Positions 9,909 to 22,361 of a DNA stretch of 38,078 nucleotides are shown one piece after another (positions within the stretch are counted from its first letter, which is position 1; each line of letters starts with the position of its first letter). The stretch covers positions 1 through 38,078 of the forward strand of contig NZ_WAKV01000085.1 of assembly GCF_015523185.1 (NCBI RefSeq). The letters run 5' to 3'. Both the position numbers and the translations under genes were made by a program. The notes beneath the pieces were generated by a model that was not told the origin of the DNA, ran no database searches, and saw only the letters and a program-made list of their open reading frames with translations. The stretch comes from Thermococcus sp. GTDB taxonomy: Archaea; Methanobacteriota_B; Thermococci; Thermococcales; Thermococcaceae.

Positions 9909-10316
9909 GTGGACGAAATGAAGCTCCTTATCAAACCCGATAGGGGCTTTGGAAAAATCGAGGTTGAGCTGGATGAGAGTCTGTGGAAAAGGATTGAAGA
10001 ACTTGCCAGGCGTTACGGAGTTTCCCCAGAGAGAGTCGTTGAGATTGCGCTGAATGGGGAGTTCAAAAAACCCAGGGGAGACCTCGAAAAACTTGAGGAA
10101 AAAGTAGAGGAGCTCGAAAGAAAAGTCTGGAAACTTGAAATGGAGTACGCCCCGCTTAGATACAAGGCCTATGGAGTTAGCGAGGACAACAAAATCTTAG
10201 CAATTGAACTCTCGGGTTTAATAGCCGAAAACAACCAGCTGAGGCGCTTCCTTAGGCTCTCCCCGAACAGGAATCCTGAACTGAGAAAGCTTATATCCTA
10301 CTACCTCCAAGGCTAA
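9909..10316 (+). CDS. RHH-like/coiled-coil protein, last gene of the glycosylase operon
   Basis: A 135-residue product. The first 50 residues resemble a ribbon-helix-helix DNA-binding unit: a beta strand (GKIEVELDESLWKRIEELARR), then helix-turn-helix YGVSPERVVEIALNG. A coiled coil follows (about residues 58-80, LEKLEEKVEELERKVWKLE) and then helices near the C-terminus. The RHH assignment is by pattern only. GTG at 9909 is the longest start; ATG at 9918 is also good, with GGAG ten bases before it. The gap to the previous gene is 18 bp, so it belongs to the same operon. It immediately precedes the C/D-box RNA. Confidence 0.72.
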   Translation: MDEMKLLIKPDRGFGKIEVELDESLWKRIEELARRYGVSPERVVEIALNGEFKKPRGDLEKLEEKVEELERKVWKLEMEYAPLRYKAYGVSEDNKILAIELSGLIAENNQLRRFLRLSPNRNPELRKLISYYLQG

Positions 10317-10318
10317 AA

Positions 10319-10376
10319 CGCGGATGATGACAGCGAATTGCACTGATGTTGATGACGAGGACTGGCCCTGACGCCG
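10319..10376 (+). ncRNA. C/D-box guide sRNA
   Basis: This is a complete archaeal C/D-box sRNA by pattern: C box ATGATGA (10324-10330), 12-base guide, D' box CTGA (10343-10346), 2-base linker, C' box TTGATGA (10349-10355), 12-base guide, D box CTGA (10368-10371). A short GCG/CGC pairing flanks the C and D boxes. Both guides have exactly the 12-base spacing that archaeal 2'-O-methylation complexes (L7Ae, Nop5, fibrillarin) require. The D' guide would pair with TGCAATTCGCTG and the D guide with GGCCAGTCCTCG. By the box-plus-five rule both predicted targets are A residues. I could not place either target in rRNA or tRNA from memory. No promoter of its own is seen; it may be processed from the upstream operon transcript. 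Confidence 0.88.
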
Positions 10377-10465
10377 TCCCGGACGGGCCGTGAGGAATCC
10401 AAGACGGGATGAGCGAAGGCGATGATATACCCTATGAGCGCCGAGCCCGTCCGGGGCGTTGGACA
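10375..10465 (+). ncRNA. Strongly structured RNA element, possibly an H/ACA-like sRNA
   Basis: A 14-bp stem with one G-U pair joins 10375-10388 to 10445-10458 (core CCGGACGGGC / GCCCGTCCGG). Within it a GGCG/CGCC helix (10418-10421 / 10439-10442) closes a loop containing GATGA and TGAG, which is the arrangement of an L7Ae kink-turn or K-loop on the plus strand. An ACA follows the basal stem at 10463. These features resemble archaeal H/ACA pseudouridylation guides, but the distance from the internal loop to the ACA (about 19 bases) is longer than the usual 14-16, so the class is uncertain. It directly follows the C/D-box RNA. GC content is far above the surrounding intergenic DNA, as expected for a hyperthermophile RNA gene. 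Confidence 0.6.
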
Positions 10466-10493: not shown

Positions 10494-10537
10494 CAAGAAT
10501 GCCCTTCTCTTGGCATTAACCAACGGAGGTGCCCCTT

Positions 10538-11515
10538 ATGAGGAGGTCTAGTCTCCTGCTAATATTCCTCCTGCTCTCCGCTGTGCCGATTTTCAGTGCA
10601 AGTTATGTTGGTGCAGTCCAGACGGACCTGAGTGGGTATACTATTTGTGTCGACGCAGGACATGGGGGCAGTGACCCGGGAGCAGTGGCCAATGGCGTTG
10701 AGGAGAAGAACATTAACCTTGCAATAGCCCTCAAGGTTGCAAAGCTCTTTGAAGAGGACGGAGCAAAGGTCGTCCTAACAAGGGACGGCGATTACTACGT
10801 TTCACTATCGGATAGAGTCAAAATAGCTAACTCAAACAACTGCGACATATTTATCAGCATACACGCCAACGCGGCCAGTGACTCCTCTGCAAGTGGGTTT
10901 GAGGTGTATCACTACTACGGTTCAACAAAGGGGAACGAGCTGGCAACCTACGTTGATGAAGAAATCGCCAAGGATATACCCCTTAAGAACAGGGGCGTTA
11001 AAGAAGCTGGCTTTTACGTTCTCAAATATACCTCAATGCCGGCAATCCTCATCGAGACAGGTTTTGTGACAAACACCTATGACGTTGGGGTAATAACCGA
11101 CGAAAACTATCAGTGGCGCTATGCCTACGCGATTCTCCATGGAGTCCAAAGGTACTTTGGCGTTCCAGTCCACGACCCGTTGCCGACCGTGACGGGTATA
11201 AGGTTCGCCGACCACGGAGACTACTTCAGAGTTGTGCTTGACGTAAGCCAGAGTACAGGGTATGAGACGTTCTATTACTACTACGGCTATTACATCGTCA
11301 TTGAGGTTCTAAACGCAACGCTCGCTGACCTGGGCTGGAATTCCGATGGAACGTGGCAGTATACCGAAACGGGCTCCTCAAGTGTGCCCTACATTTACGC
11401 AACGGAGTATGAGGGAACTGTCTACGTTGTTCTGGCACTTGGTCATCCATATCAGGGCTACAAAGACTTCACGCTTGAGAACCCCTACAGGATAGTCGTT
11501 GACGTCTACAGCTAA
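10538..11515 (+). CDS. Secreted N-acetylmuramoyl-L-alanine amidase family (amidase_3) protein with a C-terminal AMIN-like domain
   Basis: A secreted zinc hydrolase fold of 325 residues: signal peptide (about residues 1-22, no lipobox), amidase_3 domain (about 34-205), and a C-terminal aromatic-rich beta domain (about 218-325) that resembles AMIN. All four expected active-site residues are present: His42 in DAGHGG, Glu56 in VEEKN, His109 in SIHANA and Glu173 in ILIETGF. Bacterial relatives cut the amide between muramic acid and the peptide stem, but Thermococcales have no murein, so the real substrate is unknown; a cell-surface glycopeptide, S-layer part or competitor's wall are possibilities. 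The GGAGGT site fixes the ATG at 10538 rather than GTG at 10529. Confidence 0.88.
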
Positions 11516-22253: not shown

Positions 22254-22361
22254 GCCGGGGTAGCTTAGCCTGGTCAGAGCGCTCGGCTCATAGGGCCACT
22301 CCCCTTCGGGGGAGCCTGAGAAACCGAGAGGTCCGGGGTTCAAAGCCCCGCCCCGGCACCA
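22254..22361 (+). tRNA. tRNA-Met (CAT anticodon, elongator type) with a 30-base intron
   Basis: Cloverleaf: acceptor GCCGGGG (22254-22260) pairs with CCCCGGC (22351-22357); T8; D arm 22262-22280; anticodon stem CTCGG (22282-22286) with CCGAG (22324-22328); anticodon CAT 22289-22291; T stem CGGGG (22334-22338) with CCCCG (22346-22350) round TTCAAAG; discriminator A and encoded CCA (22359-22361). The intron (22293-22322) lies after position 37, the standard archaeal site. The acceptor begins G-C with a normal base pair, unlike the initiator, and tRNA-Ile2 is the only other CAT reader; elongator Met is favoured. U8 is a ThiI substrate, and thiI lies in this window. Confidence 0.9.
22293..22322 (+). 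other. tRNA-Met intron with bulge-helix-bulge splice motif
   Basis: The 4-bp central helix pairs CTCA of the anticodon loop (22287-22290) with TGAG (22317-22320). Three-base bulges TAG (22291-22293) and AAA (22321-22323) flank it, and each cut falls after the second bulge base. Inside, CTCCCC and GGGGAG form a stem closed by a TTCG tetraloop. Confidence 0.85.

Follow-up and report, generated by a model that had tools for sequence, protein, structure and literature searches.

What is the very stable hairpin that lies directly behind a box C/D small RNA in a Thermococcus chromosome? The question comes from the initial annotation of a 38,078-nucleotide stretch of Thermococcus sp. DNA (contig NZ_WAKV01000085.1; hereafter the window), in which two guide RNAs of different classes were proposed to lie in tandem, the second being an imperfect H/ACA RNA or a member of a new or unusual class. 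We find that the hairpin belongs to a known kind of RNA, though with an unusually long stem and in a remodelled form. Very probably it is a box C/D sRNA with two guides, orthologous to the guide for tRNA-Met wobble methylation and bearing a further, predicted guide for 23S rRNA. This identity rests on sequence, namely on structure, covariation, boxes, guide spacing, complementarity, conservation and synteny; from these we infer expression, RNP assembly, methylation and processing. The tandem arrangement of guide-type RNAs thus stands, but both members are of the box C/D class.

The hairpin itself is as striking as first described. The arms of its GC-rich stem I, CGTCCCGGACGGGC at 10375-10388 and GCCCGTCCGGGGCG at 10445-10458 (+ strand, as are all features of the RNA given below), are supported by fold and by covariation, and form 14 bp around exactly 56 nt. 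For the 84-nt hairpin piece the folding energy is -43 kcal/mol (z -4.5), which was equalled by none of 200 shuffles; a longer stretch that includes the upstream sRNA is less striking than the hairpin alone (z -1.6), and the reverse strand folds more weakly (z -1.35). The locus is present in 55 of 61 Thermococcus genomes, and in 48 of the 49 good ones. Is the stem maintained in these relatives? The compensatory changes for which a comparison across Thermococcus had been proposed are indeed present. Across 44 distinct sRNAs of the genus, pairing is kept through changes that include C-G to G-C swaps at pairs 1, 2, 4 and 9, and a C-G to A-U swap at pair 5. In 24 distinct stems, 96.7% of cells are paired, versus 89.3% in shuffles, and 11 of the 14 pairs show two-sided changes, versus a shuffle mean of 1.6 and a maximum of 7. 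Each of these values was reached by none of 1000 shuffles, which ignore relatedness; a slid-register control that keeps relatedness leaves 36-52% of cells paired.

The 56 enclosed nucleotides contain, in order, box C, a D' guide, box D', a linker, box C', a D guide and box D, and both guides are exactly 12 nt long, as befits an archaeal box C/D sRNA, where guides of about 12 nt precede boxes D' and D. What had been left open as a new or unusual class is a complete box C/D sRNA inside a stem. From the alignment and a census of boxes, box C is GTGAGGA (10390-10396; GTGACGA in most relatives), and is followed by the D' guide ATCCAAGACGGG (10397-10408) and box D' ATGA (10409-10412), which is CTGA in 25 of 36 distinct relatives and CTTA in three. 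The D'-C' linker (10413-10421) is variable, ranging from 7 to 15 nt in relatives and forming a hairpin in some. Box C' is ATGATAT (10422-10428; ATGACGT in most relatives), the D guide is ACCCTATGAGCG (10429-10440), and box D is CCGA (10441-10444), a form found also in the RF02163 consensus and replaced by CTGA in 2 of the 36 distinct relatives. Boxes D, D' and C' of the window RNA are thus non-canonical. The consensus of the alignment reads RTGANGA, NTCCAAGACGGG, CTGA or ATGA, a linker of 7-15 nt, RTGAYRT, RCCCTATGAGCG and CCGA, with one to three rows deviating at single boxes. Conservation is higher in the enclosed guides than in stem I.

Where would L7Ae bind? The initial annotation placed a plausible L7Ae site at a second helix, capped by GATGA...TGAG. 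The motif is present (10421-10437) and does cap a helix, GGCG/CGCC, in the minimum free energy fold. Of 36 distinct Thermococcus sequences, however, just 12 retain all four pairs of that helix, so that it is not the conserved structure, and a K-loop at this position was rejected on those grounds. The capping motif is instead box C' plus part of the tRNA-Met guide. We also rejected a local kink-turn fold, CGU-GAG-GA-AUCC/GGAU-GA-GCG, as AUCC/GGAU is kept in 6 of 36. With CCGA as box D, a kink-turn can be read directly as GGGC-CGU-GA...CC-GA-GCCC, a terminal kink-turn stem with tandem G-A pairs as far as the sequence can tell. An L7Ae site is accordingly still predicted, but it lies at the boundary between the long stem and the 56 nt, where box C faces box D.

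What does the D guide recognize? A predicted target lies in the same window, an intron-containing elongator tRNA-Met gene at 22254-22361 (+ strand), whose 28-nt intron (22293-22320) starts with GGG immediately after A37. Positions 2-11 of the D guide, counted from box D, make 10 of 10 pairs with the exon-intron junction GCUCAUA|GGG, and C34, the wobble base, falls at position 5. On this complementarity, C34 of elongator pre-tRNA-Met is the most likely predicted target of the D guide. The tRNA gene was missed by RF00005 and by patterns with a longer intron or none, and was detected by its exon pattern. A GGG-starting intron right after CUCAUA is found in each of the 14 pre-tRNA-Met genes examined from Thermococcus, and in genes from three further genera; a homologue of the gene was found in each of 20 genomes searched (six genera), with at least 106 of 109 bases matched. 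Against rRNA, the D guide shows no run above 6. Shuffled D guides find a run of 10 bp among the tRNAs in about 1% of cases, so that the match by itself has only moderate strength if register and conservation are set aside. Because only seven pairs are left after splicing, methylation should precede splicing, and reaction before splicing has been argued for archaea in PMC2584109. The tRNA-Met of P. furiosus contains an intron (PMC7668247). In that survey of the tRNAs of this species, however, Cm34 is assigned to initiator tRNA-Met, with no mention of the elongator at that point, which calls for caution over the elongator C34 reading.

The D' guide is complementary to 23S rRNA, with 11 Watson-Crick pairs and one G-U pair in the right register. 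It places U649 of a close relative's 23S rRNA at position 5, and by a single pairwise alignment this residue is about E. coli U566. We regard that uridine as the likely predicted target of the D' guide, so that both guides would have a stable RNA with its target nucleotide at position 5 from D or D'. None of 300 shuffled D' guides reached 11 bp. In other genera the D' guides of the orthologues match rRNA over at most 7 bp, versus 11 bp in Thermococcus, all of these guides having been scanned against one Thermococcus rRNA operon.

Does the RNA in fact use both guides? One can imagine that only the D guide works, on C34 of tRNA-Met, and that the complementarity of the D' guide to 23S rRNA goes unused. 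The tRNA-targeting sRNAs of Pyrobaculum have one guide without a target (PMC7994747), the weaker rRNA matches in the other genera fit such an arrangement, and so do the ATGA form of box D' in the window and its CTTA form in three relatives. Against it stand the 11 bp in correct register that shuffled guides fail to reach, and the constancy of 10 nt of the D' guide, CCAAGACGGG, which are invariant in 36 distinct Thermococcus cores beside a linker that varies freely. A D' guide that is idle seems to us unlikely, though it deserves to be taken seriously. We lean, with some reserve, toward a more ambitious reading: that a single Thermococcus sRNA unites tRNA-Met C34 with a 23S uridine, targets that are normally guided apart, on a rebuilt 14-bp stem I with a CCGA box, the 23S guide being a gain by the genus on an old tRNA guide.

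Might the hairpin be something other than a C/D guide? The GC stem, with an internal cap resembling a kink-turn, would suit an H/ACA-type pseudouridylation guide with a K-loop, and in the window an ACA does lie 3' of the stem. However, just 4 of 56 relatives have an ACA close to the end of the stem, the capping helix is complete only in the minority already described, and the C, D', C' and D boxes with two 12-nt guides explain the 56 nt in full. The Rfam search that had been recommended for such families matched no H/ACA family at E <= 10, and gave a sub-threshold match to sR-tMet instead. This reading is hardly credible, and we think much the same of a kink-turn that regulates the downstream amidase gene from its leader. 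The hairpin does lie 70-80 nt upstream of that open reading frame on the same strand, and archaeal leaders bound by L7Ae exist; but the sequence behind the stem differs among Thermococcus species while the RNA stays, and in several of them it resembles the end of a convergent gene. Only a shade less improbable is a hairpin that ends transcription of the upstream gene or forms the 3' end of its mRNA. Such an element would account for a GC-rich stem shortly after a stop codon, and TTTT occurs within 8 nt of the stem in 15 of 56 relatives. The other 41 have no adjacent T4, the guides outdo the stem in conservation, and nothing in a terminator calls for 10 bp of complementarity to the intron junction of a tRNA.

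How might the dual-guide C/D sRNA work? It would probably be processed out of a transcript shared with the abutting C/D sRNA and the gene immediately before them. An L7Ae-binding kink-turn would form from box C and the CCGA box D on the unusually long GC stem I, and L7Ae, Nop5 and fibrillarin would assemble on C/D and on C'/D'. The D guide would pair with exon 1 GCUCAUA and intron GGG of elongator pre-tRNA-Met, and fibrillarin would then methylate C34 at its 2'-OH while the intron is still in place. The D' guide, for its part, would pair with 23S rRNA near E. coli 566 and direct methylation of the uridine there.

The neighbor of the hairpin, the C/D-box RNA already noted, is a canonical dual-guide box C/D sRNA at 10319-10374 (+ strand; RF01144, sub-threshold at 29.6 bits). 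Its start follows a stop codon by 2 nt, and its 3' end adjoins the long stem I. Its guide at 10331-10342 makes 11 bp with 23S rRNA at A871 (about E. coli A753) and its guide at 10356-10367 makes 10 bp with 16S rRNA at A1075 (about E. coli A1130), both being predicted targets. In many Thermococcus copies (L060, L075-L086 and others) the D guide of this sRNA is swapped for a AGAGCAACGCTA-type sequence that has no good rRNA match, and the D' guide is largely retained. Genome G072 (L220, ~1500-1590) has a half C/D unit, GGATGACGAGAGGGACTGGCCCTGA, before an sR41 orthologue, with a 16S guide nearly as in the upstream sRNA of the window; the unit and sR41 together are possibly an intermediate of the tandem. 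The gene upstream of the pair (9909-10316, + strand) encodes a small coiled-coil protein with a weak, below-cut-off match to ZapB, and in those Thermococcaceae that were inspected the end of this gene is preserved before the sRNA. Downstream, 10529-11515 (+ strand) encodes an N-acetylmuramoyl-L-alanine amidase-like protein with Amidase_3 and AMIN domains and a signal-like start. Its host is an archaeon, and archaea lack typical murein.

To which RNA family does the hairpin belong? An Rfam search of the window at gathering scores gave no match. At a lax threshold, RF02163 (sR-tMet) matches 10385-10448 with 20 bits, against a cut-off of 50; the best score in the genus, at the same locus, is 41 bits (E 1.9e-6). 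Matches are found at E <= 1 in 86 of 94 Thermococcaceae genomes, mostly at the same locus with some chance second matches, and the 50-bit gathering cut-off excludes every Thermococcaceae homologue in the 94 genomes, while H. volcanii, the control, scores above it. Since the hairpin falls below the cut-off, we call it a homologue and not a member of RF02163, although by complementarity it is a guide for C34 of an intron-containing elongator pre-tRNA-Met. RF01126 (sR41) reaches 11.2 bits at 10404-10446, short of its cut-off of 54. In other genera the orthologous slot is occupied by a short-stem C/D sRNA with CTGA and the same D guide, and in two such copies tested RF01126 scores 71 bits, over the cut-off. 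The upstream gene end and the D guide are alike in the two settings, with synteny judged by inspection. A copy in genus g2 (L221) is intermediate, with box D CCGA and a different D' guide. Farther afield, a Methanopyri MAG (JAADCQ010000019.1, L242, 6057-6080, - strand) has the same D guide with CCGA boxes, and is likely to hold a tRNA-Met C34 guide outside Thermococci. Either form of box D, CCGA or CTGA, may thus be the ancestral one and the other derived. The single genome searched from another family (G094) gave no match.

How, finally, does the Thermococcus RNA compare with guides already described? The sR41 of Rfam occupies the corresponding genomic slot, behind a gene end of the same kind, and has the D guide CCCTATGAGCG in common with it; sR41 differs in its canonical CTGA box D, its 3-bp GCG/CGC stem and its orphan D' guide. 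It is a different RNA from the T. kodakarensis sR41 of PMC9014305, whose published coordinates for sR13, sR15, sR41 and sR42 in KOD1 coincide with C/D sRNAs. The KOD1 copy of our locus (~287610-287763, - strand) lies between sR13 and sR15, so that a numbering by position, if that is what the paper uses, would include just one of the tandem RNAs (sR14). Pyrococcus sR49, as named in PMC2584109 (from Clouet-d'Orval 2001), is likewise predicted to guide Cm34 of tRNA-Met, with the intron joining the pairing; its name disagrees with the Rfam number found here, and the comparison is by description only. The haloarchaeal sR-tMet of RF02163 (Joardar et al. 2011, as cited in PMC4033218) has in common with the Thermococcus RNA the D guide core CCCUAUGAG, a CCGA box D, similar C and C' boxes, a D'-C' hairpin in some species, and C34 of an intron-containing elongator pre-tRNA-Met as target. 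The Thermococcus RNA departs from it in a stem I of 14 bp, versus four outer pairs in the Rfam model, in a D' guide complementary to 23S rRNA, in its tandem C/D partner and in its sub-cut-off score. Two definite predicted targets can thus be given to an RNA that escapes Rfam at the family's cut-off. The guide for tRNA-Met C34 appears to have been retained in one genomic slot while the stem, box D and the second guide were rebuilt, and the mixed tRNA and rRNA guide that results would contrast with Pyrobaculum, where the second guide of tRNA guides is idle.
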